Positions 1 to 37,598 of a stretch of 64,000 bases of DNA are shown here, piece after piece. Origin of the DNA: Pseudomonas oryzihabitans (GTDB lineage: Bacteria > Pseudomonadota > Gammaproteobacteria > Pseudomonadales > Pseudomonadaceae). Each line of letters starts with the position of its first letter. Within the stretch, counting starts at the first letter, position 1. A model generated the notes under the pieces. The model was not told where the DNA came from, did not search any database, and saw only the letters and a list, made by a program, of their open reading frames with translations. A program made the translations under genes and the position numbers. Location: contig NZ_CP013987.1 of the NCBI RefSeq assembly GCF_001518815.1, forward strand, positions 2,874,501 to 2,938,500, written 5' to 3'.

Positions 1-3000
1 GAAGACGTCCTTGGGCCCCAGTTGCCAGCCCTTGCGCTGCAGACGACTGATCAGAGCCAGGGACTGAATGGAGTCACCGCCCAACTCGAAGAAGCCGGAC
101 AGGCGCCCGATACGCTCGACACCCAACAGCTCGCGCCAGAGTTCGGCCAGCAGTTCCTCTCGCGTCCCCTGAGGGGCTTCTTCGAGAAGGTGGCTGACCC
201 GCTGCGGTGCAGGCAGCGCCTGGCGATCGAGTTTGCCGTTGGGCAACTGCGGCAGGCGCTCCAGCAACACCAGGTGCTGGGGCACCAAGTGGCCGGGCAG
301 TTGCTGACGTAGCAGCTCCAGCAACGCCATCTCCTGCAAGGCGCCGCCGCCGACATAGCCCACCAGCCGGTCGCCGGCCGGGGTCTCGCGGACCATGACC
401 AGCGCCTCGCGCACGCCTGGGCACGCCTTCAGCGCTGCCTCGATCTCGCCAGTCTCGATACGGAAGCCGCGCAGCTTGATCTGCTGGTCGGCGCGGCCGA
501 GGTATTCCAGCAATCCCTCGGCATTGAGCCGCACCCGATCACCCGTGCGATAGAGCCGTTCGCCAGCGCGGAAGGGATTGGGCACGAAGCGTTGCGCCGT
601 CTCGGCGGGACGCTCCAGGTAGCCACGAGCCAGGGCACCGCCCAGGTACAGCTCGCCTTCCACTCCTACCGGCAGCAGGTTGAGGTCCTGGTCCAGCACA
701 TAGCCCTGGCGCTCGCCTACCAGGTTGCCGATGGGGGCGTAGGCACTGGTGAAATCCGCGGTGGCTGCAGGGGCGCGCCACAGGGTCGGGGTGATGACGG
801 TTTCGGTCGGCCCGTAGCCGTTGATGACCCAGTCGGGCTGGAGATGCTCCACCACCTCGCGCAGCAGGCCGCGGTCATAGGCCTCGCCTGCGAAGCAGTA
901 GGTCTTCACCCCCGGGCCGCGGCCCTGCACCCGCCCCCAGTCGGCCAGCTGGCGCAGATAGCTCGGTGGGAAGGCGACGACGGTAATGCCCTGCTCTTCC
1001 AGCGCCTGCCAGGTCTCCTGCACGCTCCACAGCGCCTGGTCGCGGATCACGACACGGGCGCCCTGGCTCAGCGGCGTCAGCCAGCGCTCCTGGGCACCGT
1101 CGAAGCTGATGGACAGGAAGTGCAGCTCACGGTCCTGCGCGGTGAGTTCGTAGCGTTGCGCGATGCCTTGGCAGTGAAGCGCCAAGGGCCCATGGGCCAC
1201 GGCCACGCCCTTGGGCCGACCGGTCGACCCGGAGGTATAGATAACATAGGCCAGTTGCTCGGGATGCAGGACCACGTCTGGCGCGCTGTCGGGCAAATCC
1301 GTGAGATCCAGGCGGTCCAGAACAACTCGCTCGACGTCAGCGACCTGGGGCAACCGTTCGAGCAGTTCGTGCTGGGTCAGCACCAGCCTGGCGCCGCTGT
1401 CTTCCAGCATCAGCGCCAGGCGCTCGGCGGGATAGTCCGGATCCAGCGGCAGATAGGCACCACCGGCCTTGAGTACCGCCAACAGAGCGACGAACAGTTC
1501 GATGCCCCGCTCGCAGGCCACGCCCACGCGGGTTTCAGCGGAAACGCCCTGCCCGTGCAGCCAATGCGCCAGGCGATTGGAGCGTGCTTCCAGGGTGGCG
1601 AAGTCCAGCCGCAGCTGGCCGTGCACCAGGGCGATGGCCCGGGGCTGGCGGCGGGCCTGTTCGGCGATCAAAGCGGGCAGCAGCGGCCTATCCGCGCTGG
1701 CCTGCGCCGGCGAATTCCAGCGTTGCCAGGTGGCCAGGCCCTCGGCATCGAGCAACGGCAGATCACCCAGGGGTGTGTCCGGCTGGCGAACCAGACCGTC
1801 GAGCAGGGTCAGCCAGGTGCGCAGGAAACGCTGGGCGGTCGCCCGTTCGAAGAGGTCGCTGGCGAAGTCCAGGTAGCCGGAAATACGGCCGTCGGCCTCG
1901 TCGAAGGTGCCCAGCGACAGGTCGAAATGCACCTGGTCGCCTGCACCGTCAAGGGCTTCGGCCTTGAGGCCGGGCAGCCGAGCCAGCGCTTGTTCGCCAC
2001 GAGCCTGGTGATTGAAGGTCAATTGGAACAGGGGATTGTGGCTCAGGTGCCGCTCGGGCTGCAGCGCCTCGACCAGTTGCTCGAAGGGCAACTCCTGATG
2101 GCTCTGGGCGTCCAGCAGGCGGGCACGTACCTGGGCGGCCAGGGCACTGGCCGGCATCCGCCCGGCGAGTTCGCCGCGCAGGACCAGGGTATTGACGAAG
2201 CAGCCGACCAGGGCCTCGGTCTCCGCCCGAACTCGACCCGCCACCGGCACGCCGATGCGCAGGTCGGTCTGGCCGCTGAGGCGGAACAGCAGGGTCTGCC
2301 AACTGGCCAGCAACAGCATGGCTGGAGTGACGGCCAGTGCCTGGGCGGTGCTGCGCAGGCGCTGGGATGTGGCAGCATCCAGGGTGAAGGTTTCGCGTCC
2401 TCCCAGCCCATTGCGCTGAGCCGGGCGCGGACGGTCAGCCGGCAGCTCCAGTAGCGGATGCTCGGTGCCAAGCTGCTCGCGCCACCAGGCCAGTTGGCGC
2501 TCACCCTCCCCGGCCGCCAGGCGCTCGCGCTGCCAGGCGGCGTAGTCGGCATAGTCCAGCGGCAGGGGTTGCGGCGACACGCTCTCGTCGCCCAGGGCTT
2601 GGCGATAGAAGCTGACCAGGTCTTCCAACAGCAACCGCATCGACCAGCCATCCGCCAGCAGGTGGTGCAGACATAGCAGGAGCAGATGTTCGTCCTGTGC
2701 CAGGCGTACCAGGGCCAGGCGCCAGGGCGGCGAGGCCTCCAGGTCGAAAGGCCGGGCCATGAAGGCGCGGCGATAGCTGTCAGCCGCTCCACGATCCAGC
2801 GTCACCACGTCGAGTTCAGGCGCGAAGCTGGCCAGGATGCGCTGCTCCGGGCCAGCTTCGCCATGACCGAAGGTGGTACGCAGGCTGGCATGACGCTGGG
2901 TGAGCTGCCGGAAGGCACAGCGCAGCGCCGCTTCATCGAGTCGACCCTGCAGGCGCAGCCCCCCTGGCAGGTGATAGGCCGCACTCTCCGGATCGAGCTG

Positions 3001-6000
3001 GGCAAGAAACCACAGGCGCTGCTGGGCAAAAGATTGCGGTGCTCGCGCGGGCGTACCAGGCCAGTCCCGCCGCTGCAGCGGCGCATCGTCCGCCTGGATC
3101 CTGTCATCCAGACGCTCAGCGAACGCCGCCAGGGTGGCGGATTCGAACAGCAGCCGGACCGGTACCTCCCAGCGATGCTCGCGGCGCAGCCGGGCCACGA
3201 CTTGCAGGGCGAGCAACGAATGCCCGCCGAGAGCGAAGAAGTCATCGTCACGCCCGACCCGCTCCACCTGCAACAACTCGGCCCAGAGCGTGGCCAGCTC
3301 GGTTTCGATCCCCGGCTCCGGCGCACGGTAGGTCTGCTGAATGACGTCCGGTTCCGGCAGCGCCTGGCGATCCAGCTTGCCGTTGGGCGTCAGCGGTAGC
3401 CGGTCGAGCGCCACCAGATGACTGGGCACCATGAAGTCCGGCAGCCGGGCCAGCAGGGCCTGGCGCACCACCGCCTCGTCCAGATTCGGCGTCACCAGGT
3501 AGCCCACGAGTCGTGGCCCGATGGCGCTCTGACGTAGCAGCACCACGGCCTCGCTGACGCCGGCCAGCTCGCGCAGTGCGGCTTCGATCTCGCCGAGTTC
3601 CAGGCGCAGGCCGCGCAGCTTGACCTGGTGGTCCAGCCGGCCCAGGTAGTCCAGGGCGCCGTCGTCGCGCCAGCGTGCCAGATCGCCGCTGCGGTACAGC
3701 CGGCCACCCGGGGTGAAGGGATCGGGGACGAAGCGCTCAGCGGTCAGGCCCGGGCGGCCCAGGTAGCCACGGGCCAGGCCGACGCCGCCGATGTACAGCT
3801 CGCCGGCCACGCCGATGGGTTGCGGATTGAGGCGCTCGTCGAGGATGTGGATCTGCAGGTTGGCGATGGGGCGCCCGATGGGTACCGCCAGGCGATCTGA
3901 CTCTTGGCAGGTCCAATGGGTAACGTCGATGGCCGCCTCGGTGGGGCCATAGAGGTTGTAGAGCGCGACCCGGGGCAGGCGCTGGCGAACGGCCTGGGCC
4001 AGCTCCGCCGGCAGGGCCTCGCCGCTGCAGACGATGCGCGTCAGGCTCGCGCAGCCGGAGAGATCGCCCTGGGCCAGGAAGGCGGCCAGCATGGAGGGCA
4101 CGAAGTGCAGCGTGGTGATGCCTTCGCGGGCGATCAGGGCGCTCAGCGCCGCCGGATCACGATGCTCGCCCGGGCGGGCCAGCACCAGCCGGGCACCAGC
4201 CTGCAGCGGCCAGAAGAATTCCCAGACCGAGACGTCGAAGCTGAAGGGCGTCTTCTGCAGGACATGGTCGCGCGCATCCAACCCATAGGCGGCCTGCATC
4301 CACTGCAGGCGGTTGTACAACGCCGCCTGGGTGTTGCCGGCACCCTTGGGTCGGCCGGTGGAACCCGAGGTGTAGATCAGATAGGCCAGTTGCTCGGGAT
4401 GGACCTGGAGTTCGGGCGCGGTGGCCGGCTCGGCGGACAGGTCCAGCCGCTCCAGGTCCAGCACATCCAGCCCGATATCACTGGGCAGCACGGCCAAGGC
4501 CGGGCCATGGCTCAGTAACAGACTGGCCCCGCAATCCTCCAGCATGAAGGCCAGGCGTTCGGCCGGATAATCCGGGTCCAGCGGCACATAGGCCGCGCCG
4601 GCCTTGAGCACTCCGTAGAGGGCGATCACCATCTCCACCGAGCGCTGCATGGCGACCCCGACCCGGCTTTCGCGCCCGATACCACGGCGGCGCAGGTGAT
4701 GGGCCAGGCGATTGGCGGCCTGCTCCAGCTCCAGGTAGCTCAGGCGGCGCTCGTCCAAGCACAGGGCCTCGCGCGCGGGATGCCTGGCGACCTGTTCGAG
4801 GAAGCCACCCAGCACCCCGGCGGGCGGCAGCGGTGCATAGGTTTCCGCAGTGGCATTCCAGCCGGCCAGCCGCGCGGGTTCGTCGGGCAACAGTAGCGAC
4901 GCCTCGGCCAGCGGCTGGTGCGGGGCATCGAGCAGACTCTGCAGCAGCACCAGGAAGCGTGCGTGCAACTGCTCGATGCGCGCCGGTTCGAAGAGGTCGA
5001 GGGCGAAGGTCCAGCTACCGCCGAGCTGGCCGTCCGGGTCTTCCCAGGTGGCCAGGGCCAGGTCGAACTGGGCCTGGGTGGTCGGCGTTTCAAGGATGAC
5101 CGCCTGCAGGCCCGGCAAGCCGGCCAGGGCGCGGTGATCGCGCACCTGATGGTCATAGCTGACCTGGAACAGCGGATGCTGGCTGAGGCTCCGCTCCGGG
5201 TGCAGGTGCTCAACCAGGTGCTCGAAGGGCAGGTCCTGGTGAGCCTGAGCTTCGAGCAGGGTCTCGCGGACCTGCTGCACCAGGTGCGCGAAATCCACTG
5301 GGGTAGCGAGGTCCAGGCGCAGTACCTGGGTGTTGACGAAGCAGCCGATGAGGTCATGCACCTCGGCACGCGTCCGCCCCGCCACCGGTACACCAATGCG
5401 CAGGTCACGCTGACCGCTGAGACGACCCAGGAGCGCTCCATAGACCGACAGCAGCAGCATGAAGGGCGTGACACCCTGGGCACGAGCGGCCTGGCGCAGC
5501 GCCTCGGCCTGTTGAGCGCAAAGCCGGAAATCCAGGCGTTGCCCGGCACCGCTGCGCCGCGCAGGACGTGGCCGGTCAGCAGGCAGGTCCAGGGTAGGCG
5601 CCTCGCTGCCCAACTGCGCGCGCCAATACGCCAGTTGCCGTTCTCCTTTTCCCGCGCTCAGTTGTTCGCGCTGCCAGCGCGCATAGTCGGGGTACTGCAC
5701 CGGTAGCCCCGGCAGGTCAGGTACCGCGCCGCTGAGCGCGGCCCGATAGAGTTCGGCAAAGTCACGCAGCAGCACGCCAACCGACCAACCGTCCGAGATG
5801 GCATGGTGCAGGCACAGCAGCAGACGGTGCCGCCGCTCCTCCAGGCGTACCACGGCCAGCCGCCAGGGCGGACTGCTGGCGAGCGCGAAGGGACGAGCGA
5901 TAAAGGCCTGCAACAGGCGAGTGAAGGCCGCTTCCTGATTGGTACCTGTGTCGAGTACCAAGCGCTCCACGGCCACGGGTGCCGGCGGCAAGATGCGCTG

Positions 6001-9000
6001 GCGGGGTGGATCACCCGGCAGCAACAGGCTGCGCAGACTGGCATGCCGCGCCGCCAGGGCGGTAAAGGCCGCCCCCAGGGCCTGCTCATCCAGGGCGCCC
6101 TGTAACTCCACGACACCCGGCAGGTGATAGGCCGCACTCTCGGGCTCGAGCTGCGCCAGGAACCACAGCCGTTGCTGGGCATAGGATTGCGGCGCCTCGT
6201 CCCGCGCCAGGGCCTGGAGTTCCGGCTCCGGGCGTTCGGGCGCCAGGGCGGCGATCCGCTCGGCCTGTTCGGCCAGCTGCGGCGCTTCGAACACCAGGCG
6301 CAGCGGCACCTCCCGGCCTTCCTCCTGGCGTAGACGGGAGATGAGCTGCGTCGCCAGCAGGGAATGGCCGCCCAGAGCGAAGAAGTTGTCCTGGCGACCG
6401 ACCCGCTCGATTTGAAGCAGGGCTTGCCACAACTCGGCCAGGCGCTGCTCCAGGGCCGTGGCCGGTGCTTCGTAGTTGTTGTCCGCCGTGACTTCCGGCG
6501 CGGGCAGCGCCCGGCGATCCAGCTTGCCGTTGGGCAGCTGCGGCAGGCGCTCCAGCAGCACCAGGTGCTGGGGCACCAAGTGGCCGGGCAGTTGCTGACG
6601 CAGCAGCTCCAGCAACGCCATCTCCTGCAAGGCGCCGCCGCCGACATAGCCCACCAGCCGGTCGCCGGCCGGGGTCTCGCGCACCATGACCAGCGCCTCG
6701 CGCACGCCCGGGCACGCCTTCAGCGCTGCCTCGATCTCGCCGGTTTCGATACGGAAGCCGCGCAGCTTGATCTGCTGGTCGGCGCGGCCGAGGTATTCCA
6801 GTAGTCCCTCGGCATTGAGTCGCACCCGATCACCCGTGCGATAGAGCCGTTCGCCAGCGCGGAAGGGATTGGGCACGAAACGCTGCGCCGTTTCGGCGGG
6901 ACGCTCCAGGTAGCCACGAGCCAGGGCACCGCCCAGGTACAGTTCGCCTTCCACTCCTACCGGCAGCAGGTTGAGGTCCTGGTCCAGCACATAGCCCTGG
7001 CGCTCGCCTACCAGGTCGCCGATGGGGGCGTAGGCACTGGTGAAATCCGCGGTGGCTGCAGGGGCGCGCCACAGGGTCGGGGTGATGACGGTTTCGGTCG
7101 GCCCGTAGCCGTTGATGACCCAGTCGGGCTGGAGATGCTCCACCACCTCGCGCAGCAGGCCGCGGTCATAGGCCTCGCCTGCGAAGCAGTAGGTCTTCAC
7201 CCCCGGGCCGCGGCCCTGCACCCGCCCCCAGTCGGCCAGCTGGCGCAGATAGCTCGGTGGGAAGGCGACGACGGTAATGCCCTGCTCTTCCAGCGCCTGC
7301 CAGGTCTCCTGCACGCTCCACAGCGCCTGGTCGCGGATCACGACACGGGCGCCCTGGCTCAGCGGCGTCAGCCAGCGCTCCTGGGCACCGTCGAAGCTGA
7401 TGGACAGGAAGTGCAGCTCACGGTCCTGGGCGGTGAGTTCGTAGCGTTGCGCGATGCCTTGGCAGTGAAGCGCCAAGGGCCCGTGGGCCACGGCCACGCC
7501 CTTGGGCCGACCGGTCGACCCGGAGGTATAGATGACATAGGCCAGTTGCTCGGGATGCAGGACCACGTCTGGCGCGCTGTCGGGCAAATCCGTGAGATCC
7601 AGGCGGTCCAGAACAACTCGTTCGACACCAGCGACCTGGGGCAACCGGTCGAGCAGTTCGTGCTGGGTCAGCACCAGCCTGGCGCCGCTGTCTTCCAGCA
7701 TCAGCGCCAGGCGCTCGGCGGGATAGTCCGGATCCAGTGGCAGATAGGCACCACCAGCCTTGAGTACCGCCAACAGAGCGACGAACAGTTCGATGCCCCG
7801 CTCGCAGGCCACGCCCACGCGGGTTTCAGCGGAAACGCCCTGCCCGTGCAGCCAATGCGCCAGGCGATTGGAGCGTGCTTCCAGGGTGGCGAAGTCCAGC
7901 CGCAGCTGGCCGTGCACCAGGGCGATGGCCCGGGGCTGGCGGCGGGCCTGTTCGGCGATCAAGGCAGGCAGCAGCGGCCTACCCGCGCTGGCCTGCGCTG
8001 GCGAATTCCAGCGTTGCCAGGTGGCCAGGCCCTCGGCATCGAGCAGCGGCAGATCACCCAGGGGTGTGTCCGGCTGGCGAACCAGACCGTCGAGCAATTG
8101 CCCCAGGTGCGCGGCCATCCGCTGCACCTGAGCGGGCGTGAAACAGGCACGTTGATAATGCAGTTGCAGTTCCAGTCGGTCCCCAGCCATGACGGCGATA
8201 CTCAGCGGATAGTGAGTTCGTTCGCTGACCGTGACCGCACCGATGGTCGGCGCCGCCGACGTGGCACCGCGCAGGGCTGCGTCCACCGGATAGTTTTCGA
8301 AGACCAATAGCGTATCGAACAGTGCCTGGCCCGGATGCCCCGCTAGGCGCTGCACCTCGAAGAGCGGCGTGTGCTCGTGTTCGCGCAAGGCCAGGTTGTG
8401 AGCCTGCAAGGCGGGCAGCCATTGGGCGGCGGTAAGCTCCGGTCCGGGCGCCTGGACCACCGGCAGGGTATTGATGAACAACCCCAGCAGGCGATCGCTA
8501 CCGGCGACGTCGGCCGGTCGACCGGCGACGGTGGCGCCAAAGGCTATCCGGCGCTGGCCGGTATAGCGCTGCAGCAGCAGGGTCCAGGCTGCCTGCACCA
8601 AGGTATTGAGGGTGACCCGCAGCCGCCGCGCGGCGGCGTCGAGGGCGAGACGATCGAGCACCAGATGCTGCTCGCCACTGCGCGTGTCGTCGTTCGTCGC
8701 CGGACGTCCAAGGCTATCGACCAGTCGGGTCGGCGAGGCGAAATCAGCCAATTGCGCCTGCCAGAAGACGCTGCTATGCGCAGCATCGCGGCTGGACAGC
8801 CAGTCCAGGTAGTCGCGGTACCGCCCAGGCGCTGGCAGTGCCGCGCCGCGGGTCGCCTGGAGGATTTCCGCGAGCAGCGCGGCGCTGCTCCAGCCATCGA
8901 GCAGGATATGGTGCAACGTCCAGGTCAGCTGCCAGCGCTTATCGGTGAGCCGGATGAGCAGCAGGCGCATCAGCGGCGGCTTGGTCAGGTCGAAGGGACG

Positions 9001-12000
9001 CTCACGCTCCTCCCGCTGTGATTCGGCGAGGGCAGCGGGGGCAACCGACTGATCGCGCCAGTCCTGCTCACGGACGGCGAGCTCAACCTGACGCCAGATG
9101 GCCTGTACCGCCCGTCCCTCTCCGGCCAGGCGCAGGAAGGCTGCCCGCAGCCCGGCGTGCCGGCGAAGGGCCTGTTGCCAGGCGTCGAGGAACGCCGCTC
9201 GCGGAAGGTCGTCGAGCTCGACGCTGACCTGGTTGACATAGAGGTCTCCAACGCCGCCCAGTTCGGTATGGAACAACAGGCCTTGCTGCATGGGCGTGAG
9301 AGGTTGCAGGTCCTCTATTTCGGCCAGCGGCAGCGCATCGAGTTGCGCCTGGGTCAACGTCAGGCGCGGAAAGTCAGCAGGCGTCGCACCACTGGCTTGG
9401 CGGCACAGCGTCAGGACATCATCGAGCGCCGTGGCGAAGGCGTCCAACAGCGCCTGGATACGCGCCGGAGCGTGGCGTTGGCCACTGTAGGTGCAGGTGA
9501 AATGCAGCTCGCCACCTTGTACAGCGCCTTCCAGCGCCAGCTCGGCCTCAAGGGGCGTACGAGGATCACGCGCGCGCCCGGTGGCCTCGTCCGCGAGGCG
9601 GAAGCCGCCCAGCTCGGTGTCGAGTTGACCCAGGTAGTTGAACAGCAGGGAGCCGGTGGTTTCCGGTAATGCCTGCTCCCCGCGAGCCAGTAGCAGGCCG
9701 TAACCGAGCCCGCCGCGCGGAATACGGCGCAGGCTTTCCTTGACCGTCTTGAGGCTGCTGGCCAGGTCCGCCTGATCGCTCAGCCGGACCGGATAGAGGC
9801 TGGTGAACCAGCCCAGGGTGCGGCTCAGGTCGAGCCCGGGAAACAGGTCTTCCCGGCCATGGCCTTCCAGGAGCAGCCGCGCCTCGGCCTCCCCGCCCCA
9901 GGCATGGAGCGCTCGGACCAGGGCGGTGAGCAGCAGGTCGTTGACCTGGGTGCGAAAGGCCGCCGGCGCCTGGGTCAGCAGTTCGCGGGTGCGCGCGGCA
10001 TCCAGCCGCAGGCTCAGGTGCTGGGCATCGGCTTCCCAGGCGCGCCCGGCTGGATGGTCGCACGGCAAGGCGGGCGCCTGCGGCAACTGTTGCCAGTAGG
10101 CACGCTCGCTGTCCAGTTCCAGGCCTTGCAGCGCCTGGACCCAGCTGGCGTAGGGAAGCACGGGGGGTAGCCCGAGGTCGGGGTCGGCATAGAGCCGGTC
10201 CAGATCGTCCAGCAGGATGCGCCAGGACACCCCATCCACCGCCAGGTGATGGATCACCAGCAGCAGACGCTGACCACCCTCGGCGAGGTCGGCGAGCACG
10301 GCGCGCAGCAGGGGGCCCGCGTCTAGGCTCAGACTGGCCTGGGCCTCGTCGGCCAGGGCTGGCAGCTCGGCGCGGGTCACGGACGAATGCCAAAGCAGGT
10401 CGGCGTTTTCGCGGGCGCGATAGCGCTGCTGCCAACGGCCTTCGGATCGGGTGAAGCTTAGGCGCAGGGCGCCGTGGGTGGCCACCAGTCGCCCCAAGGC
10501 TCGGCGCAGCTGTTCAGGCTCCAATCGCGTCTGCGGCTCCAGTAGCAGGGACTGGTTCCAGTGTTCAGGACGCAGTAGTTCGCGAGCGAAAAAGGCATGT
10601 TGGATGGGCGCCAGGGCAAAGGGTTCGGTCGGCTCCGCGGCGATCTCAGCGGGCGCCTCCAGGCGTTGCACCACAGGGGCCAGCTCGGCGAGGGTCTGAC
10701 GTTCGAACAGATGCCGCGGACTGAAGACCAAGCCTAGGCGACGAGCCCGGGCGATGATCTGCAGGCTGAGGATGGAATCGCCTCCCAGGGCGAAAAAATT
10801 GTCGTCGCGCCCGATCCGCCCCACCTGCAACAACTCGGCCCAGAGCGTGGCCAGCTCGGTTTCGATCCCCGGCTCCGGCGCACGGTAGGCCTGCTGAATG
10901 ACGTCCGGTTCCGGCAGCGCCTGGCGATCCAGTTTGCCGTTGGGCGTCAGCGGTAGCCGGTCGAGCGCCACCAGATGGCTGGGCACCATGAAGTCCGGCA
11001 GCCGGGCCAGCAGGGCCTGGCGCACCACCGCCTCGTCCAGATTCGGCGTCACCAGGTAGCCCACGAGTCGTGGACCGATGGCGCTCTGACGTAGCAGCAC
11101 CACGGCTTCGCTGACGCCGGCCAGCTCGCGCAATGCGGCTTCGATCTCGCCGAGTTCCAGGCGCAGGCCGCGCAGCTTGACCTGGTGGTCCAGTCGGCCC
11201 AGGTAGTCCAGCGCGCCGTCGTCGCGCCAACGTGCCAGATCGCCGCTGCGGTACAGCCGGCCACCCGGGGTGAAGGGATCGGGAACGAAGCGTTCAGCGG
11301 TCAGGCCCGGACGGCCCAGGTAGCCGCGGGCCAGGCCGACGCCGCCGATGTACAGCTCGCCGGCCACGCCGATGGGTTGTGGATTGAGGCGCTCGTCGAG
11401 GATGTGGATCTGCAGGTTGGCGATGGGGCGCCCGATGGGTACTGCCAGGCGATCTGACTCTTGGCAGGTCCAATGGGTGACGTCGATGGCCGCTTCCGTA
11501 GGGCCATAGAGGTTGTAGAGCGCGACACGAGGCAGGCGCTGGCGAACGGCCTGGGCCAGCTCCGCCGGTAGAGCCTCGCCGCTGCAGACGATGCGGGTCA
11601 AGCTCGCGCAGCCGGAGAGATCGTCCTGGGCCAGGAAGGCGGCCAACATGGAGGGCACGAAGTGCAGCGTGGTGATGCCTTCGCGGGCGATCAGGGCGCT
11701 CAGCGCCACCGGATCACGATGCTCGCCCGGACGCGCCAGCACCAGCCGGGCACCGGCCTGCAGCGGCCAGAAGAATTCCCAGACCGAGACGTCGAAGCTG
11801 AAGGGCGTCTTCTGCAGGACATGGTCGCGCGCATCCAACCCATAGGCGGCCTGCATCCACTGCAGGCGGTTGTACAACGCCGCCTGGGTGTTGCCGGCAC
11901 CCTTGGGTCGGCCGGTGGAACCCGAGGTGTAGATCAGATAGGCCAGTTGCTCGGGATGGACCTCCAGGGCTGGCGCAGTGGCCGGTTCGGCGGACAGGTC

Positions 12001-13893: not shown

Positions 13894-16800
13894 CAGGGGG
13901 TTTCCTCCAACTCGTCCAGTAGCGCGTCCAGCGCCTCGAGGCGATCATCGTCCAGCGTCTGCTCACGCAAGGTGTCTATGAGTTCGGCCTGGGCCGTTAG
14001 CGTCGTGGCGGTAAAGGCGGCAGCCAGGGGCACGCGCACGCCGAGCCGTTCGTGAACACGCGAGAGCAAGCGCGTGGCGAGCAGGGAGTGGCCACCCAAG
14101 GCGAAGAAGTCGGCTTCCCGGCCCACCTCCGGGACCTGCAGCAACTCCTGCCACAACTCGGCCAACTGTCGTTCGGTAGCGCCTTGGGGCGGTTGCTGGG
14201 ACTCGGCGGGCAGCTCGGGTACGGGCAGAGCTCGGCGGTCGAGCTTGCCATTGGCATTGCGCGGCAGGCGCTCCAGCCACAGCGACTGGGTCGGCACCAT
14301 GAACAGCGGCAGCCGCTGCGTCAGGCACGCACGCAGTGCATCAAGATCAGGGCGTTCACTACCCTGGGGCTCCAGATAGGCCACCAGCTGAATGCCCTGG
14401 GGGGTGGGCTGAGCGGCAACCGCGGCGTCGCGGATACCGGGCTGGGCACGCAACAGGGTCTCGATCTCGCCCGGCTCCAGCCGCTGACCGCGCACCTTGA
14501 TCTGGAAGTCGGTCCGGCCGACGTACTCCAGTTCACCTCGCGCACTCCAGCGCACCAGATCGCCGCTGCGGTAGAGCCGCTCACCGGCGGTGAAGGGACT
14601 GGGCACGAAGCGCTCGGCAGTCAGCCCCGGGCGGCCCAGGTAGCCGCGGCCGACCCCCGTGCCGCCGATGTACAGCTCGCCTGTCCCACCCTGGGGTACC
14701 AGGCGCAGGCGCTCGTCGAGCACGAACAAGCGGGTATTGTCGGTCGGCGTGCCGATGGGGATGTCACGCTGAGGCACCCGAAGTCGCTGCAAGGCGACGT
14801 CGTCGGCGCATTCGGCCGGGCCATAGGCGTTGACCAAGGGAATCTGGGGATAGCGTTGCAGCCAGCGCCCCGCCAGATCAGGCGCCAGCGCCTCGCCGGT
14901 GGGCAGCAGCCAGCGCAATGCCGGTAACGGTTGGTGCGGCAGGTCCAGCAACGCGGCGATCACTGCCGGCACGCACTCCAGCACGCTCACCCCGCCCCGC
15001 GTCACCCGCGCCAGCAGCTGTGCAGGATCCTGTACCTCCGCCTCGGCCACGATCTCCACCCGGCCACCGAACAGCGGCGCGGTGAGAAATTGCCAGACCG
15101 AGACATCGAAGCCGGTCGCGGCGGTTTGGGCGATGACGTCCTCCTCTCCCAGCTGGAGATAGGGCAGCTTGCTCAGCTGATTGTTAAGCATGCCCTGCTG
15201 GGTGACCATGACGCCCTTGGGTTCGCCGGTGGAACCCGAGGTGAAGATGACATAGGCCAGTTGGTCGGGACGGGCGCGCACGCCAGGGCCACCCACGGGG
15301 TGCCGCGCCAGCAACTCTTCGAGAATCAGCAGTCTGGGTTGGCGTTCACACAGCGCCAGGACGGCCTCGGCGGTTGCCCGCTCCGCTCGGGGTACCACGA
15401 GCACCGGCGTGGCGCTGCTGTCCAGCAGCCGGGCACTGCGCGCCTGGGGATGACGCTCGTCCAGCGCGAGGTAGGCGGCACCTGCCTTGAAGACACCCAC
15501 CATGAGGGTCAGAAGCGCCACTCCTCGCGGCGCACAGAGCGCCACGATCTGGTCCGGCCCTATCCCCTCGGCCGCCAGGGCCCTGCCCAGGCGGCCGGCC
15601 CGCTCGTCCAGCTCGCCATAGGACAGGGTCTCCTCCCCACAGCGCGCCACGAGGCGTTGCGGATGATGGGCGGCGCGCGCTTCGAATCGTTCGATCCACG
15701 ACAGCTGATACCAGTGCGGCTGCACCGCGCCCCGCCCCCAGGCCAGTAGCTGTTCGTACTCACTGGCGGCCAGGGGATCCAGTTCGTCCAGCGGACGTTC
15801 CGGCGCCTCGATCAAGGCACCCAGCAGCCGCTCGAATTGGCCCAGCAGAGTGCGCATGTCCGCGGCGGCGAACAGCCCGGTGTCGAAGGTGAGCTGCAGG
15901 CGTAATTCGCGGCCTGGCAACAGGACGACCGTCAGGGGGTAGTTGGTATGGGTGCGATTGGCGAGCGGGGTGATGCCGAACTCGGCAACGGCCTCCTCCA
16001 CCGCGCCCCCCAGTGGCACGTTTTCGAACACGAACAGGGACTCGAACAGCGGTTCGCCGGGCGGTATCGCGGCCAGACGCTGCAGCTCGGCCAGCGGGAG
16101 ATGCTCATGCTGGCGCAGTTCGACATTGCGCGCCTGCAGGCGGCGCAGCAGCTCCAGTGCGGTCACCTCGGCGGTCGGCCGGGCCACGCGCAGTGGCAGG
16201 GTATTGATGAACAGGCCGAGGGCTTCTTCGATCCCATCCAGCTCCGGCGGACGGCCGGCGACGGTCACGCCGAAGACCACCTCGTCGCAGCCGGCGTGGC
16301 GCATCAGCACCAGCGCCCAGGCCGCCTGGACAAAGGTGTTGGCGGTCAACTGGTGACGTCGCGCCTGGGTGGCCAGGGCGTGAGTCGCCTCGGCAGACAG
16401 CGCCACCGCCTCGTCGCGCATCTCACCCGACGCGGTACCGGGCCGTCGATAGGGAAGCGGCGTGGCGGCCGTCACCCCAGCCAGCTCGGCCTGCCACCAG
16501 GCGCGACCCGCGGCGGCATCCTGGGCCTGGAGCCAGGCGAGAAAGTCGGCATAGGGTCGGGCGGGTGGCAGGGTCAGTGCGGTTCCAGCCAACGCAGCGC
16601 GATAGCGGGCGAAGAATTCCCCCAGCATCAGGCCGCGACACCAGGCGTCGATCAGCACATGGTGATGCGTCTGCACCAGCTGATGGTCATTCGGCCCAAA
16701 GGTCACCAGGCGCAAACGCAGCAGTGGCGGCCGCGCGAAGTCGAAGCCTTCGCGGCGCTCTTCGGCAAGCAGCGCCTCCAGCGCGGCCAGGCCCTCCTCC

Positions 16801-19800
16801 CGTGGCCGATCGCTGAAGTCCAGGAAACTGACCGGCGACGGCACCTGTCGGTGCACCACCTGCCGCCATTCACCATCCTGCTCTTGAAAGCCGGTGCGCA
16901 GCGCCGGATGCCGTGCCACCACCGCGTCCCAGGCCAGACGGAAGGCCTCGGCCGCCAGGGGTTGGCGCAGCGCGTAGCGATCCTGCATCAGGTAGATGCC
17001 GCTGCCCGGCTCCAGCAGGCTGTGCATCAGGATGCCTTCCTGCATGGGCGCCAGGGGTAGCACGGCTTCCAGAGCGGGCTCCGGGACGTTGCCGGTTTCG
17101 GTGGCGAGCAGCGCCTCCAGAGCCGTCGTGAAACCCTCATGCAGACGCGCGATGGCGCTGGCCTCGAAGCGCGCCGTGCTGTAGCGCCAGTCCAGCCGCA
17201 GCTGGCCGTCGTATACCCGGGCATCCAGTACCAGGGCGCTGGTCAGGGGGCCATCGGGGTCGCGACTGCTGCGTAGCTCCAGCTGGCGCAGCGGAAAACC
17301 GGCAACCGTCGGCCGCTCGAAGCGCCCAAGGTAGTTGAAGGTCAGGCCTTCCCGGGTATCCGCCAGGCAGGTATCGGCCAGGTAGCGCAACAGTCCGTAA
17401 CCCAGGCCACGCTCAGGCACCTCGGCGAGGGTCCGGCGCACCCGCGCCAGCGTGCCGGTCGGGGTCGCCTCCGCCCCCAGCACCAAGGGATAGAGACAGG
17501 TGAACCAGCCCAGGGTACGACTCAGGTCCAGTTGCCCATGGAGATCCTCGCGGCCGTGCCCTTCCAGGGCGATACGGGTCGCCGCGCGCCCCGTCCAGTG
17601 CCGCAGGGCGTCGGCCAAGGCTGCCAGCAACACGGCTTCGGTGCCGGATACCGCGAGGAGCCGGTCGGTGAGGTCCACCGAGAGTCGCTGCGCCAGGGTG
17701 CCGCTATCCCGTACCCGGCAGGTGCCCTGCGGATGGCTGCAGGGCAAGGTCTCGGGTACCGCCGCGACCGCTTCCCAGTAACCGCGCTGGCGTTGCAGTC
17801 CAGCATCGGCGGCGCGGTGCGCCATCTGGTGAGCCCAGGCGCTCCAGTCGCTGCTCGCCTCGCCCAAGTCGGGGGGCGTACCGCCTGCCAATTGCTGATA
17901 GGCCAACGCCAACTCGTCCAGCAGGATGCGCCAGGAGACGCCGTCCACGGCCAGATGGTGGATGACCAGCAGCAGCCGGGGATGCCGCTCCGGCCCCTCG
18001 GCCAGCACCGCGCGCAGCAGCGGTCCACGGGCGAGGTCCAGGCTACGTTCCGCCTCCTCGAACAGAGGTGCCAACTCGGTTTCAGTGGCTACCTGGCAGG
18101 TCCAGAGCAGCCGCTGCGCGTCTTCCACGGGTCGCACCCGCTGACGCCAGCCGCCCTGCTCGGTTGGTTCGAAGGCCAGGCGCAGACTGCTGTGGCGAGC
18201 GACCAGCGCCGCCAACGCCTGGCGCAACACCTCGGCTTCGAGTGGGGCGGCCAGTTCCATGACCACGGACTGGTTCCAGTGCGCACGCTGGCGGACCGGC
18301 TCGCTGAAGAACCGCGCCTGGATGGGGGTCAAGGGCAGATCGCCCATCGGATCTTTTATCGCGGGGGGTGTTACCGGGGCGCCTGCGGGCGCCGCCACCT
18401 CGGCCAGGGCCGCGATGGTCTGATGCTCGAACAGCTGCTTGGGCGTGAGCTTGAGCCCCTGGCGACGGGCCCGGGCGATGATCTGCAGACTGAGGATGGA
18501 GTCGCCGCCCAGGGCGAAGAAGTTGTCATGCCGCCCGACGCGGTCCACCTTGAGTGCGTCGCTCCAGAGCGTCGCCAGCGCGGCCTCGACCTCTCCCTGG
18601 GGTTCGGCAAAGGCGGCCTGACGTGCTTCGGGCTGCGGCAACCGCGCGCGGTCGAGCTTGCCATTGGCGGTGAGTGGGAAGGCCGCGAGCACCAGGACCT
18701 GGGCAGGCACCAGCGCCTCGGGCAGCTGCCGGGCGAGGATTTCCCGCAGGCGTTCGCCCTTGGTATCGCCCGTCACATAGGCCACCAGTTGCCCTCGGCC
18801 ATCCAGCTGGACGTGGGCCGCGGTGATGCCCGGTTGTGCCAGCAGGGCCGCGACGATCTCGCCAGGCGCCACACGATAGCCCCGCACTTTGAGCTGGTCA
18901 TCGCTACGGCCCAGGAATTCCAGGCGGCCGTCCGCCGCCAGGCGTACCCGGTCACCGGTGCGGTAGAGCCGTTCACCTGGCGCCCAGGGATCTGGCAGGA
19001 AAACCGCCGCGGTATCGCCGGGCCGCCCCTGATAGCCCCGCGCCAACCCCGGCCCGCCCAGGTACAGCTCGCCGGCCGCGCCGGCGGGTAGCGCGTTGAG
19101 ATCGGCGTCCAGCACCCGAGCGCGCAGATTGGGCAGCGGCGTGCCCAGAGCGATGCCGGTAGCCGGATCATCAAGGGCTGCGGTCAGGGCGCCCACGGTG
19201 CTTTCCGTGGGCCCATAGTGATTGAACAGCCGGCAGCCCGGCTTGAGTTGACGGACCTGAGCAGCAAGCTGTGCCGGCAAGGCCTCTCCGCCCAGCACCA
19301 GGGCGGCGTGCGGCAGGAGCCGCGCCGGCTCGGCGGCTTGCAGCAAGGCGGCCAGCTGGGTAGGGACGATCTTGAGCACCGCCACCGGGTGGTCGGCGAA
19401 ATACCCGGCGCAGCGATCGGCATCCCGCACCACCTCGTCATCCACCAGGTGCAGGGTGCCGCCCGTGGCCAAGGCGCCGAACAACACCGTGTGGCCGAGA
19501 TCGGCGGCCACCGTCGAGACCAGGGCGAAGCTGGCCTGCGGTGGCAGTGCCAGGCGCTGCAGCACGCCCTGCACGTAGTTGGCGATGGCGCCATGGGAGA
19601 CCACTACCCCCTTCGGTCGGCCCGTGGTCCCGGAGGTGTAGATCAGGTAGGCCGCCTGGGCAGGCCGGACGACGACGTCCAGCGCATCCGCCGGCAGCCG
19701 TCGCCAGTCCGCGGCGGCATCCAAGGCGAGCGAGGGAGGGCCTTCGGGCTGGGGCGCGCCTAGCAGCAGCCGAGCACCACTGTCGGCCACGACCTGGGCC

Positions 19801-22800
19801 TTGCGCGCCTCGGGCCATTTGGGATCAAGAAAGACACAGGCCCCGCCAGCCTTGAGAATGCCCAGCAGACCCACGACGAAACTGGCCTGCCGCGGCTGAC
19901 AGAGGGCGACCCGCACCTCGGCGCCCACCCCCTGGGCACGCAGCGCCCGGGCCAGGCGATTGCTGTCGGCATCCAGTTGCGCATGACTCAGGCTGGCATC
20001 GGCCGCCATCACCGCGGCCCCTGGTCCGGCCTGGCGCAGGCCCGCACGCCATAGCGCCAGCAGATCCGCCGCTGGAAAGGCCTGGCGCTCACCTTCAAGC
20101 CCCACGGCCTCGGCGGCCAGGCGATAGCGCGCCAGCGGTTGCTCGGCATCGGCTACCACCTGTTGGGCCAGTTGGGCGAAGTCGGCTGCCAGCGCGGCGA
20201 TGCGCGAGGCGTCGAAGAGATCGCAGGCGTAGGTAAAGACCGCTTCGATACCGGAGGGGACGTCGGTGATGTCCAGCCCCAGGTCGAAGTGCGCCGCGCC
20301 ATCGTCGAGCTGCCGCGCCGACAGGGTCACACCACCCAGATCCAGGCCCTGGGGCAGCGGAAACTGCTGCGTGAATTTGACCTGGCACAGTGGATTCCAA
20401 CCCAGGTGGCGTTCCGGCGCCAGGGCCTCCACCAGCAGATCGAAGGGCAGGTCCTGGTGCGCCTGGGCTTCCAGGGCGCGCGTCCTGACCTGGGCCAGCA
20501 GTGCCTTGAATGACTGGGTACCGTCGAGGTGGCAGCGCAGCACCTGGGTGTTGACAAAGAAGCCGATCAACCGCTCGGTTTCTCGCCGCGTGCGCCCGGC
20601 CACGGGTACGCCCACGCATAGGTCATGGCTGCCGCTATGACGCTGCAACAGCAGCTGAAACAGCGCCAGGCCGACCATGAACAGGGTTGCCCCCTGGCGC
20701 TGGGCCAGCTCGCGCAGGCCTTGGCTGGCCGTCTCGCTCAGGCTGAAGGCAAAGCGCGCACCGCGCCCGCTTTGCCGAGGTGGGCGGGGTCGGTCACAGG
20801 CTAAATCCAGCCGTGCCGGGGCATCGGCCAGTTGCGCACGCCAATACGCCAGTTGCCGCTCGCGCGCGGCACCGGTCAGCTGGTGGCGCTGCCAGCGGGC
20901 GAAGTCGGCATAGGTGATGGAGAGGGGCGCAAGCGCAGGCGCCTGGCCCTCCTCCGTCTGGTACAGGACGGCAAAGTCTTCCAGCAGGACTTGGATCGAC
21001 CAGCCGTCGGCAATGATGTGGTGCAGCACCAGCACCAGTCGATGATCGTCGGCCCCATGCCGGACCAGCGCCATGCGCCACAAGGGGCCTTCCCGCAGAT
21101 CCAGCGGGCGACGCACCAGGCTACGGACCAGTTCGGCCTGGGTTGCGTCGCGATCCAGCGCCCGGCTCAGGTCATGATGCTCGACCGCGCCCTGGGCCAG
21201 CGCCTCGATGCGTTGCTCGGGAACCTCACCGTCGCCCGCGTCGAAGCGGGTACGCAGCGCGGCGTGACGCTGCACCAGCGTCTCCAGCGCCCGCTCCAGC
21301 CGCGCCACGTCCAGGGTGCCGGCAAGGTGGATTTCCCCGGCCAGATGATAGGTAGCCTTGCCTGGTTCCAACTGATCGAGAAACCACAGCCGTTGTTGGG
21401 CAAAGGACTGGGGCGCTCGCTCATCGCCTTGGGCGAGCGGTCCTTCCGGCTGGGCCTCGCGCGGCAGCGCGGCCACCTGCGCCGAAAAGGCCGCCAGCGT
21501 CGGATGCGCGAACAGCAGTGCGGGATCGACCGCCACACCCAGCGTGTCACGCAAACGGGCCTGCACCTGGACCACGGCCACCGAATCGCCACCCTGGGCG
21601 AAGAAGTGGGCGTCCGCGGCCAGCTCGGCGCGGTTGAGTACCTCAGCCCAGGCCGTCCTCACCGCCGGCAGCACGGTTTGGGCCGCAGGCTCGGGTTGCT
21701 GCCGGGCTAAGCGGCCATCACGCCACTCGGCGAAGCTATCCAGGGTGCCGGTCAGCCAGCCAGCCCGGCAGGCTGAGCGTTGCAGCTTGCCGCTGGTGGT
21801 TCTGGGCAGTGTGCCCGGTTCGAGCAGGGCGATGGCGCTGGGAGCGACCTGGAAGGCCTGAGTCAGGGCTTCCACCAGGGCTGTGCAAATGCGTTCGGCC
21901 GGTACCAGCCGGCGCACGTTGCGACTGATCTCCAGCGCCAGCCCTATCCCCTCGCGCCCCGCCTCGCCCTCCAGCGCGAAAGCCGCCACCCGGCCCCGCC
22001 GCAGGTAATCGGCCACCTGCTCTTCCAGCAGCAGCTCCACATCCTGCGGATAGAGATTATGGCCGTTGAGGATGATGAGATCTTTCAGCCGCCCGGCGAT
22101 ATAGAGCCCTTGCTCGGCCGCAATGCCCAGGTCCCCGGTACGCAGCCAACGCCTGCCGTCGCGCTCCACGAACGCCGCGGCCGTGGCGGACGGATTGTTC
22201 CAGTAACCCTGGGCCAGGCTGGGCCCGGCAACCCACACTTCCCCGGCACGGTTCTCGCCCAGCGGTTCCAGCGTCTGCGGGTCGACGATGCTCAGCGCGT
22301 GCTCCGCATCGCACCAGCCACAACCGGCCAGGCGACCCTGCTGCAGCGCGACCTCCGCACCTGCGGCGCCCAGGGCCTCACCCGCGAAGCGACGGATGCG
22401 GAAATCATCCACGGGCTCATGGGCGCAGACATAGAGGGTCGCCTCGGCCAGGCCATAGGCTGGGGTCAGCGCCTGACGGCGGAAGCCCGCGGCGGCGAAG
22501 CGCTCGCAGAAGGCATCCAGGGTATCCACGCGGATGGGCTCGGAGCCGGAAAAGGCCATGCTCCAGCGACTCAGGTCGAGTTCCGCCAGGGCGCTATCGC
22601 TGACCCGCTCCACGCACAGGCGGTAGGCGAAGTCCGGCCCGCCGCTGATGGTGCCGCCGTATTGGCTGATCGCCTGCAGCCAGCGCGCCGGCCGGGTAAG
22701 AAAGTGGTTGGGCGACATCAGCGTCAGGGTGCCGCCGTGAAAGATCGGTAGCAGCAGCCCAAGCATCAGGCCCATGTCATGGTAGAGCGGCAGCCAGCTC

Positions 22801-23435
22801 ACCCAGCCTTCGTCACGCCCGGTGAGAAACCCCCGCTGCATGGCCTTTTCGTTGGCGATCAGATTGGCGTGACTGACCATCACCCCCTTGGGCGCGGACG
22901 TCGAACCCGAGGTGTACTGCAGAAAGGCAAGCGCCGCGGGATCCACGACCTGGGGGCGATAGGCCAGCGCCCAAGTGGCATCGATGTCTTCGACCGCCAG
23001 GCACAGGGCACCTTCGGGCAGCGCCTGGCGCAGCGTCTCGGCATGGGCGGCGAGGCAGGCTCGTTCGCCGAGCACTACCCGTGGCTTGGCATCGTCGAGC
23101 ATGCCGCGCAGTCGCTCGATGTGCATCTGGCGATTGTTTTCCGGCGGGAAGGCCGGCACGGCGATGACGCCGGCATAGAGGCAGGCGAAGAACGCCGCCG
23201 CGTAGTCCGGTCCACTGGGCAGCAGCAACACACAGCGCTCGCCGCGCGCCTCCCCCAGGCGTTCCTGCAGGCAGCCGGCGAGGCTCAGCGCCCGGTTGCG
23301 CAGCTGGGCATAGGACAGCAGCTGGGGCGTCTCGTCATTGGTCAGGTGGCGCAGCAATAGCTGGTCCGGCTGGCGCTCGGCGTAGAAATCAAGGACGTCG
23401 ACGAAATGCTCGGCTTGATCCGCTCTGGAGGTCAT
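13893..23435 (-). CDS. Non-ribosomal peptide synthetase 1 with fatty acyl-AMP ligase loading domain
   Basis: 3180 residues. Residues 1-585 are a fatty acyl-AMP ligase (YTSGSTSAPKG near 173, SWLPLYHDMGL), followed by a carrier domain (GGDSV, Ser near 618), C (HHIIADGWS, 805), A (1270), PCP (LGGDSI, 1643), E (HHLAVDGVSW, 1827), C (HHHVLIDAW, 2260), A (2737) and PCP (LGGHSL, 3117). The first amino-acid-activating domain reads DLTKVGHVGK, an aspartate code. The second reads DVWELTADDK, close to 2,4-diaminobutyrate codes as I remember them. Predicted product: fatty acyl-D-Asp-Dab, passed to synthetase 2. It opens the line as PvdL does in pyoverdine synthesis, but it has no Glu and no Tyr module, so it would not make a pyoverdine chromophore. 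No Asp beta-hydroxylase or extra interface domain is present. ATG at 23435 has AGGTGA seven bases upstream. Confidence 0.95.
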   Translation of the reverse strand: MTSRADQAEHFVDVLDFYAERQPDQLLLRHLTNDETPQLLSYAQLRNRALSLAGCLQERLGEARGERCVLLLPSGPDYAAAFFACLYAGVIAVPAFPPENNRQMHIERLRGMLDDAKPRVVLGERACLAAHAETLRQALPEGALCLAVEDIDATWALAYRPQVVDPAALAFLQYTSGSTSAPKGVMVSHANLIANEKAMQRGFLTGRDEGWVSWLPLYHDMGLMLGLLLPIFHGGTLTLMSPNHFLTRPARWLQAISQYGGTISGGPDFAYRLCVERVSDSALAELDLSRWSMAFSGSEPIRVDTLDAFCERFAAAGFRRQALTPAYGLAEATLYVCAHEPVDDFRIRRFAGEALGAAGAEVALQQGRLAGCGWCDAEHALSIVDPQTLEPLGENRAGEVWVAGPSLAQGYWNNPSATAAAFVERDGRRWLRTGDLGIAAEQGLYIAGRLKDLIILNGHNLYPQDVELLLEEQVADYLRRGRVAAFALEGEAGREGIGLALEISRNVRRLVPAERICTALVEALTQAFQVAPSAIALLEPGTLPRTTSGKLQRSACRAGWLTGTLDSFAEWRDGRLARQQPEPAAQTVLPAVRTAWAEVLNRAELAADAHFFAQGGDSVAVVQVQARLRDTLGVAVDPALLFAHPTLAAFSAQVAALPREAQPEGPLAQGDERAPQSFAQQRLWFLDQLEPGKATYHLAGEIHLAGTLDVARLERALETLVQRHAALRTRFDAGDGEVPEQRIEALAQGAVEHHDLSRALDRDATQAELVRSLVRRPLDLREGPLWRMALVRHGADDHRLVLVLHHIIADGWSIQVLLEDFAVLYQTEEGQAPALAPLSITYADFARWQRHQLTGAARERQLAYWRAQLADAPARLDLACDRPRPPRQSGRGARFAFSLSETASQGLRELAQRQGATLFMVGLALFQLLLQRHSGSHDLCVGVPVAGRTRRETERLIGFFVNTQVLRCHLDGTQSFKALLAQVRTRALEAQAHQDLPFDLLVEALAPERHLGWNPLCQVKFTQQFPLPQGLDLGGVTLSARQLDDGAAHFDLGLDITDVPSGIEAVFTYACDLFDASRIAALAADFAQLAQQVVADAEQPLARYRLAAEAVGLEGERQAFPAADLLALWRAGLRQAGPGAAVMAADASLSHAQLDADSNRLARALRAQGVGAEVRVALCQPRQASFVVGLLGILKAGGACVFLDPKWPEARKAQVVADSGARLLLGAPQPEGPPSLALDAAADWRRLPADALDVVVRPAQAAYLIYTSGTTGRPKGVVVSHGAIANYVQGVLQRLALPPQASFALVSTVAADLGHTVLFGALATGGTLHLVDDEVVRDADRCAGYFADHPVAVLKIVPTQLAALLQAAEPARLLPHAALVLGGEALPAQLAAQVRQLKPGCRLFNHYGPTESTVGALTAALDDPATGIALGTPLPNLRARVLDADLNALPAGAAGELYLGGPGLARGYQGRPGDTAAVFLPDPWAPGERLYRTGDRVRLAADGRLEFLGRSDDQLKVRGYRVAPGEIVAALLAQPGITAAHVQLDGRGQLVAYVTGDTKGERLREILARQLPEALVPAQVLVLAAFPLTANGKLDRARLPQPEARQAAFAEPQGEVEAALATLWSDALKVDRVGRHDNFFALGGDSILSLQIIARARRQGLKLTPKQLFEHQTIAALAEVAAPAGAPVTPPAIKDPMGDLPLTPIQARFFSEPVRQRAHWNQSVVMELAAPLEAEVLRQALAALVARHSSLRLAFEPTEQGGWRQRVRPVEDAQRLLWTCQVATETELAPLFEEAERSLDLARGPLLRAVLAEGPERHPRLLLVIHHLAVDGVSWRILLDELALAYQQLAGGTPPDLGEASSDWSAWAHQMAHRAADAGLQRQRGYWEAVAAVPETLPCSHPQGTCRVRDSGTLAQRLSVDLTDRLLAVSGTEAVLLAALADALRHWTGRAATRIALEGHGREDLHGQLDLSRTLGWFTCLYPLVLGAEATPTGTLARVRRTLAEVPERGLGYGLLRYLADTCLADTREGLTFNYLGRFERPTVAGFPLRQLELRSSRDPDGPLTSALVLDARVYDGQLRLDWRYSTARFEASAIARLHEGFTTALEALLATETGNVPEPALEAVLPLAPMQEGILMHSLLEPGSGIYLMQDRYALRQPLAAEAFRLAWDAVVARHPALRTGFQEQDGEWRQVVHRQVPSPVSFLDFSDRPREEGLAALEALLAEERREGFDFARPPLLRLRLVTFGPNDHQLVQTHHHVLIDAWCRGLMLGEFFARYRAALAGTALTLPPARPYADFLAWLQAQDAAAGRAWWQAELAGVTAATPLPYRRPGTASGEMRDEAVALSAEATHALATQARRHQLTANTFVQAAWALVLMRHAGCDEVVFGVTVAGRPPELDGIEEALGLFINTLPLRVARPTAEVTALELLRRLQARNVELRQHEHLPLAELQRLAAIPPGEPLFESLFVFENVPLGGAVEEAVAEFGITPLANRTHTNYPLTVVLLPGRELRLQLTFDTGLFAAADMRTLLGQFERLLGALIEAPERPLDELDPLAASEYEQLLAWGRGAVQPHWYQLSWIERFEARAAHHPQRLVARCGEETLSYGELDERAGRLGRALAAEGIGPDQIVALCAPRGVALLTLMVGVFKAGAAYLALDERHPQARSARLLDSSATPVLVVPRAERATAEAVLALCERQPRLLILEELLARHPVGGPGVRARPDQLAYVIFTSGSTGEPKGVMVTQQGMLNNQLSKLPYLQLGEEDVIAQTAATGFDVSVWQFLTAPLFGGRVEIVAEAEVQDPAQLLARVTRGGVSVLECVPAVIAALLDLPHQPLPALRWLLPTGEALAPDLAGRWLQRYPQIPLVNAYGPAECADDVALQRLRVPQRDIPIGTPTDNTRLFVLDERLRLVPQGGTGELYIGGTGVGRGYLGRPGLTAERFVPSPFTAGERLYRSGDLVRWSARGELEYVGRTDFQIKVRGQRLEPGEIETLLRAQPGIRDAAVAAQPTPQGIQLVAYLEPQGSERPDLDALRACLTQRLPLFMVPTQSLWLERLPRNANGKLDRRALPVPELPAESQQPPQGATERQLAELWQELLQVPEVGREADFFALGGHSLLATRLLSRVHERLGVRVPLAAAFTATTLTAQAELIDTLREQTLDDDRLEALDALLDELEETP

Positions 23436-24795: not shown

Positions 24796-24847
24796 GCGAA
24801 CCTCTCGTCGATAACCGGGTGGGATCGCCAACCGCCCAAAGCACGAT

Positions 24848-26615: not shown

Positions 26616-27265
26616 GCACGACCTCGCGTGGGACAGTTGCGGGCAGCACAGCTGCCGGTCAGGGAATTGCGACAGTGCAGGGTGGCGTCCTGCAGAAGAA
26701 AATTGACCAGCGCGGGGGAGGCACCGATACGCCGGGCGACGTCCCTTTGGGTCAGGCCCTCGACCCGGCAGAGCGTGATCACGTCCTGGGTGCGCGCCGG
26801 CAGCTGGCGCAAGGCGCGCACCACCAGCCCGATTTCTTCCCGGGCCTGAACGACTCGCTCGGCGGAGTGATCGCTGGCCACGCCTTCATCCTGCTCGTCG
26901 GGGCTGACGAACCAGCGCTCCTCGAGCTTCTTGCGGCGGAGCTGGTCCACGGCCAGATTCTGGACAACCCGATACAGATAGCGTGACGGCTCCACGACAG
27001 CTTGGGAGTCTCGGCGCTCCCAGACCTTGAGAAAGGCCTCCTGCACCACGTCCTCGGCCCGCTTTCGACACCCGAGTAATCGCGTTGCCGTATTGAGGAG
27101 TCCGTAATGATGATGATCGAATAGCCGTCCCAGAGCTGAAGCACGATCAGCCGCCCTCTCCTCCGCCGGCTTCACCGGGGAGGCCAAGGCGGCCGACTGC
27201 GTGAGCGCGTCGAGAGAGGGCCGGGGCTGGCAGGAGGGCTGAGACGGCGCGAGAGGCGATAGCAT
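26612..27265 (-). CDS. ECF sigma factor, iron-starvation type
   Basis: 217 residues from ATG at 27265; a TTG at 27283 is also in frame, and neither has a clear ribosome site. Sigma region 2 is seen in GCRKRAEDVVQEAFLKVWER with PSRYLYRVVQNLAVDQLRR, and region 4 in QLPARTQDVITLCRVEGLTQ. The tail SPALVNFLLQDATLHCR resembles PvdS/FpvI-group sigma factors. The first 45 residues are a Pro/Ser-rich extension not seen in PvdS, so the true start may be internal. It overlaps the exporter by ATGA, and a Fur-like box lies 36 bases upstream. It probably directs RNA polymerase to the biosynthetic promoters under iron limitation. No anti-sigma regulator or TonB receptor is visible nearby. Confidence 0.88.
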   Translation of the reverse strand: MLSPLAPSQPSCQPRPSLDALTQSAALASPVKPAEERAADRASALGRLFDHHHYGLLNTATRLLGCRKRAEDVVQEAFLKVWERRDSQAVVEPSRYLYRVVQNLAVDQLRRKKLEERWFVSPDEQDEGVASDHSAERVVQAREEIGLVVRALRQLPARTQDVITLCRVEGLTQRDVARRIGASPALVNFLLQDATLHCRNSLTGSCAARNCPTRGRA

Positions 27266-27283
27266 TTCTGCATCCGGTAGCAA

Positions 27284-37473: not shown

Positions 37474-37598
37474 CGTCTCCAAGGTCTTCTCCCCTCTCCA
37501 CGTCTCCGGAGAGGCTCACCATAGCACGCAGACTCAAAGGACGGCCTGGCGACGGAGATCCCGTCGCCAGGTCGGCCCGACTTCGCGTCGGCGACGGC

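Follow-up and report, generated by a model that had tools for sequence, protein, structure and literature searches.

A predicted marinobactin-family fatty-acyl siderophore gene cluster in Pseudomonas oryzihabitans

Clusters closely related to the one analysed here were described in two earlier reports. In a survey of 2023, 'another unusual BGC' was found in Pseudomonas sp. 8O and in Pseudomonas sp. MS15a(2019), the latter from the P. oryzihabitans group. It was the same BGC, with the same predicted hexapeptide, and P. chaetocerotis was also covered (PMC10165715). In 2026, formomarinobactins were determined from P. graminis, and for the P. lutea group MS gave proof of this formylated analogue (PMC13037486). 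In that work, marinobactin clusters were recognised by a GNAT gene in place of the formylase. Within Pseudomonas, it lists one marinobactin cluster only, that of P. oryzihabitans USDA-ARS-USMAR(C), with others in Ectopseudomonas and Phytopseudomonas (PMC13037486). For Ectopseudomonas, the published layout is again that of the present cluster, GNAT included (PMC13037486, Fig. 1B). Marinobactins A-E were identified from Terasakiispira in the same month (PMC12971057). A homologous cluster of P. mendocina ymp was tied to hydroxamate siderophore production by Awaya and DuBois (2008), as their work is cited in PMC10165715 and PMC13037486. The initial annotation of the present DNA had proposed a marinobactin-like acylated siderophore not described for this genus. 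The first part of this interpretation was upheld by the results below. The second was refuted, since the same BGC had been published for the P. oryzihabitans group in 2023 and 2026 (PMC10165715, PMC13037486). The cluster is already described for this group and does not represent a new type of system.

The window analysed here is a stretch of 64,000 nucleotides, corresponding to 2874501-2938500 of the single 4,834,356-base chromosome. Window coordinates are used throughout, and negative positions lie left of the window and were read from the same chromosome. The siderophore locus extended over ~40 kb, from -12737 to 27283, and the initial annotation took in only part of it. Judging from its sequence, the locus is very probably a complete marinobactin-family fatty-acyl siderophore gene cluster. 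Its genes, domains, adenylation codes, gene order and synteny were observed directly.

The domain order of the two synthetases was determined using motifs and Pfam. NRPS 1 (FmbD-type, 3180 aa) was located at 13893..23435 on the minus strand and showed the order FAAL-T-C-A(Asp)-T-E-C-A(Dab)-T. NRPS 2 (FmbE-type, 5332 aa) was located on the same strand at -2105..13893, with 1..13893 inside the window, and showed the order C-A-T-E-C-A-T-C-A-T-C-A-T-E-TE. All domains inside the window were on the minus strand. The starter was a fatty acyl-AMP ligase (FAAL) domain at 21741..23435, in which family models covered residues 11-565. The ten binding-pocket residues of each A domain were read by hand from aligned core motifs, with the last residue set as the invariant Lys. 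A domain 1 (18636..20039; DLTKVGHVGK) was predicted to select Asp and was followed by a T domain and an E domain (17094-18341). A domain 2 (14226..15695; DVWELTADDK) had a Dab-like code, and a class III aminotransferase was present in the cluster. A domain 3 (10924..12351), followed by an E domain (9394-10617), and A domain 5 (3364..4800) carried the same Ser code, DVWHVSLIDK. The names Asp, Dab and Ser for these codes follow the published code tables.

A domains 4 (6514..7956) and 6 (214..1671) shared the code DGEACAGITK, which was predicted to select N5-acyl-hydroxyornithine. This assignment was made by comparison with relatives. The pattern D-G-E-[A/S]-C-A-G-[I/V]-T occurred at the same positions in five other clusters of the marinobactin family, and the family product has hydroxyornithine there (PMC13037486), so both domains were assigned to hydroxyornithine. 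Relatives of A domain 4 with solved structures were general A domains only, with nothing on specificity. The marks of epimerisation were found after modules 1, 3 and 6, as a GGDS-kind carrier followed by HHxxxDG, EGHGRE and NYLG motifs. E domains after A1 and A3 meant that D-Asp and D-Ser are predicted. The final E domain of NRPS 2, next to A domain 6, was located at -1349..-72, left of the window, as was the thioesterase. Only C and E domains were detected by motifs and Pfam after the Asp module, with no extra 'interface' condensation-like domain. The predicted read-out is therefore fatty acyl - D-Asp - Dab - D-Ser - (hydroxy)Orn - Ser - D-(hydroxy)Orn, with the thioesterase as the last domain. 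The order acyl-D-Asp-Dab-D-Ser-X-Ser-X in the initial annotation was borne out by domains and codes, with the addition of an E domain for the final X.

This ending allowed for a product that is marinobactin-like but different in detail, with another acyl suite, or with one hydroxyornithine unacetylated or C-terminally cyclised. The E-TE ending would put a D-hydroxyornithine at the C terminus. Some pyoverdines have a cyclo-hydroxyornithine at this position. One example is described in PMC12195549. The tail lengths also vary, from C12-C18 in marinobactins to C10-C14 in formomarinobactins. However, the relatives aligned along the whole of NRPS 2, its end included, and the characterised relative makes linear products in which both hydroxamates are acylated. 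We considered such a variant unlikely, and the marinobactin-type linear hexapeptide was retained as the preferred reading.

Three more genes of the cluster lay to the right of the synthetases, all on the minus strand. These were an L-ornithine N5-monooxygenase (PvdA/FmbC-type; 23509..24831; PF13434, 391 bits, E 4e-117), a PvdE/SyrD-type cyclic peptide ABC exporter (FmbB-type; 24942..26615; TIGR01194, 389 bits, above cut-off) and an ECF sigma factor (FmbA-type; 26612..27283; PF04542, PF08281, TIGR02937). The first two confirmed the N5-hydroxylase and the PvdE-type exporter that had been annotated. The Fur-like boxes that had been noted were also present. One (24843-24861) lay directly upstream of the monooxygenase gene and one (27297-27315) directly upstream of the sigma factor gene, each with 13/19 matches to the consensus. 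Within 45 kb these two sites scored highest, where 0.3 such sites were expected by shuffling. Weaker matches (12/19) were found left of the window, upstream of the TonB receptor gene. As sequences the boxes are weak, but their positions are as expected. A membrane-dipeptidase-like gene, which looks like a peptidase M19 such as PvdM, was seen at 36481-37482, 9 kb right of the cluster, and is probably unrelated to it.

The left flank contained genes for a class III aminotransferase for Dab (-3480..-2095; PF00202), a TonB receptor (-5815..-3557), a FhuB-like permease (-7921..-5909), a periplasmic binding protein (about -8650..-7719) and an MbtH protein (-9132..-8929). Further left were a TauD-type dioxygenase (-10138..-9146; PF02668, 147 bits), a GNAT N-acetyltransferase (-11133..-10135; PF13523, 195 bits), a FhuF-type reductase (-11973..-11227; PF06276) and a FhuC-type ATPase (-12737..-11970), the last on the strand opposite to the other left-flank genes. 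The TauD-type enzyme is a putative aspartate beta-hydroxylase, and its neighbourhood suggests that it may act on Asp. The adjoining GNAT gene was the sole PF13523 member in a genome-wide profile search. No formyltransferase or formylase gene (PvdF-type, fmbJ) was seen among the cluster genes, and GNAT stands in its place. Since the left flank adds these tailoring genes, all enzymes for acyl-OHAsp-Dab-Ser-AcOHOrn-Ser-AcOHOrn would be encoded in one locus. The aminotransferase, the beta-hydroxylase and GNAT strengthened the marinobactin-like interpretation.

From these genes, we infer a pathway together with the substrate chemistry of each enzyme and the length of the fatty acid. The FAAL domain would turn a fatty acid into acyl-AMP and load the first carrier. 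NRPS 1 would add Asp and then Dab, which the cluster aminotransferase would supply. The Asp would be epimerised, and the TauD-type enzyme would beta-hydroxylate it. NRPS 2 would add D-Ser, N5-acetyl-N5-hydroxyornithine, Ser and a second acetyl-hydroxyornithine, which would be epimerised. The acetyl-hydroxyornithine would be supplied by the N5-monooxygenase and the GNAT acetyltransferase. The thioesterase would probably free a linear lipohexapeptide acid, and Fe(III) would be bound via two hydroxamates and the beta-hydroxy-aspartate. The siderophore would leave via the PvdE-type exporter and return via the TonB receptor, followed by the FhuB-like permease, the binding protein and the FhuC ATPase. 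The FhuF-type reductase would then free the iron. The ECF sigma factor and Fur may act as controllers of the locus, in which case it would be regulated by iron.

We compared the locus with those of relatives. In the window's genus, the cluster was present in 3/13 species examined (the window genome, G007 and G012), and the first 978 aa of NRPS 1 were 86-87% identical in G007 and G012. Three others of the 13 species had other FAAL-containing NRPSs at 46-50% identity, and the remaining species had neither. This differs from the single Pseudomonas cluster given in PMC13037486. The cluster was found in 12 of 398 genomes of the family, where the scores showed a gap between the marinobactin type (58%, 1156 bits) and the pyoverdine PvdL type (about 51%, 922 bits). 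Over its full length, NRPS 1 was 86% identical in the sister species G007 and 58% identical in P. guguanensis (G110; Pseudomonas/Ectopseudomonas). The order of 13 tested genes was kept in both, at 78-96% aa identity in G007 and 42-75% in P. guguanensis. The closest named relative in the scan was an uncultured Pseudomonas (91%). The published clusters of P. oryzihabitans (perhaps the present strain) and Ectopseudomonas, and those of MS15a(2019), 8O, P. chaetocerotis and P. mendocina ymp, resembled the present locus in gene content, module order, GNAT, their own Dab aminotransferase, receptor and reductase. Sequence divergence was the one difference found, with about 60% aa identity to the P. 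guguanensis NRPSs. Marinobactins A-E of Marinobacter and Terasakiispira (PMC12971057) agreed with the present locus in its predicted product, fatty acyl-OHAsp-Dab-Ser-AcOHOrn-Ser-AcOHOrn, and in the presence of GNAT. However, the Marinobacter clusters reportedly do not cover the synthesis of Dab by themselves (PMC13037486), whereas the present locus has its own aminotransferase.

A maximum-likelihood tree of the FAAL-C region placed the 16 marinobactin-type rows in one clade (100/100), apart from the PvdL-type rows. The clade was split in three. One group was the window's genus. The second consisted of G149 with G272, G357, G372 and G382, and the third of P. guguanensis, P. yangonensis, Pseudomonas sp. 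8O, G235, G388 and a gammaproteobacterial MAG. In the genomes tested, GNAT was present in the window-genus group and in the P. guguanensis/8O group, and it was found in none of the G149 group. This distribution agrees with the division into acetylated and formylated types that has been published. The G149 group, G372 included, may be of the formylated type. The DNA next to the G149 TauD gene and around the G372 cluster was examined for a formylase, and none was recognised in those stretches.

These data bear on whether the product could instead carry formyl groups on its hydroxyornithines, like the formomarinobactins of the P. lutea group. Among the Pseudomonas members of the family, formomarinobactin is the one with chemical proof, for an identical hexapeptide backbone that bears formyl and not acetyl (PMC13037486). 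The six modules of its fmbA-K cluster follow the order seen here, with codes alike but for conservative changes, and the sigma factor, exporter, monooxygenase, aminotransferase, receptor, MbtH, TauD and FhuF genes are shared. The difference is a PvdF-type formylase there and a GNAT acetyltransferase here. The GNAT of the siderophore acetyltransferase family by the TauD gene, without a formyltransferase gene seen in the cluster, argued against a formylated product, and so did the occurrence of GNAT, which separated the tree clades cleanly. A formylated product is therefore very unlikely, and acetylated hydroxyornithines are the preferred prediction.

We also weighed a siderophore of the pyoverdine or corrugatin type whose chromophore or additional residues would be encoded elsewhere. 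The FAAL start, Dab, N5-hydroxyornithine and its N5-hydroxylase, and the PvdE-type exporter are common to the pyoverdine PvdL line, and PvdL-type proteins were next nearest in sequence. However, the locus lacks the chromophore Tyr module that the PvdL line has. The Glu-Tyr-Dab chromophore modules of PvdL were absent from NRPS 1, whose codes were Asp and Dab only. NRPS 2 ends in a thioesterase and adjoins receptor and transport genes. The FAAL-C tree set the locus outside the PvdL-type rows, with 43-48% aa identity of this region to PvdL against 58-100% inside the marinobactin clade. A pyoverdine-type completion was rejected for the left flank, where receptor, transport, TauD, GNAT and FhuF genes were found. 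Only one other C-domain NRPS was present in the genome, an EntF-like protein in an enterobactin-type locus, and there was no other multi-module NRPS. A pyoverdine- or corrugatin-type product is thus extremely improbable.

The enterobactin-type locus was found at chromosome positions 3131019-3145568, about 190 kb right of the window. It contained a TonB receptor gene, EntC-like, FepB/D/G/C-like and EntS-like genes, the EntF-like NRPS and a Fes-like esterase. A cluster resembling that of enterobactin is on record for the P. oryzihabitans group (PMC10165715). This shared locus, in a genome that lacks pyoverdine and has the marinobactin-type cluster, fits an origin of the window in that group. The strain therefore probably has another siderophore besides the marinobactin-type product.

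The repeated modules of NRPS 2 were compared at the DNA level. Within the window genome, the Ser domains (modules 3 and 5) were 97.3% identical and the Orn domains (modules 4 and 6) 98.4% identical, and one stretch of 1601 bases was 97.9% identical between repeated modules. The same domains were 87-88% identical to their counterparts in G007 and about 70-73% in others. In nearly all other comparisons as well, copies within a genome resembled one another more than they did their counterparts. These results point to concerted evolution of the A domains within the synthetase gene, driven by gene conversion or by repeated duplication.

An endonuclease-like gene bordered the cluster at its left side and an AraC gene at its right side (-13012 to 27541). 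In the congeners G001 and G003, the same flanking genes enclosed 9.1 and 2.6 kb, not the 40-kb cluster. The site there contained a peptidase and a dienelactone-hydrolase-like gene and no siderophore-cluster genes. The site is a place where the cluster was either gained in one line or lost in the other. It is conceivable, though rather doubtful, that the lineage makes a variant marinobactin, distinct in its tail lengths or at its C terminus, beside an enterobactin-type catecholate, and that only part of the species of the genus gained the cluster, which displaced other genes here.

Taken together, the complete locus and its relatives confirm that a clade of pseudomonads outside Marinobacter carries the genes for a type of amphiphilic siderophore that was first found in the sea. 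The natural division between acetyl and formyl groups on one and the same assembly line, together with the homogenised repeated modules, makes this family a clean case for the study of assembly-line evolution.
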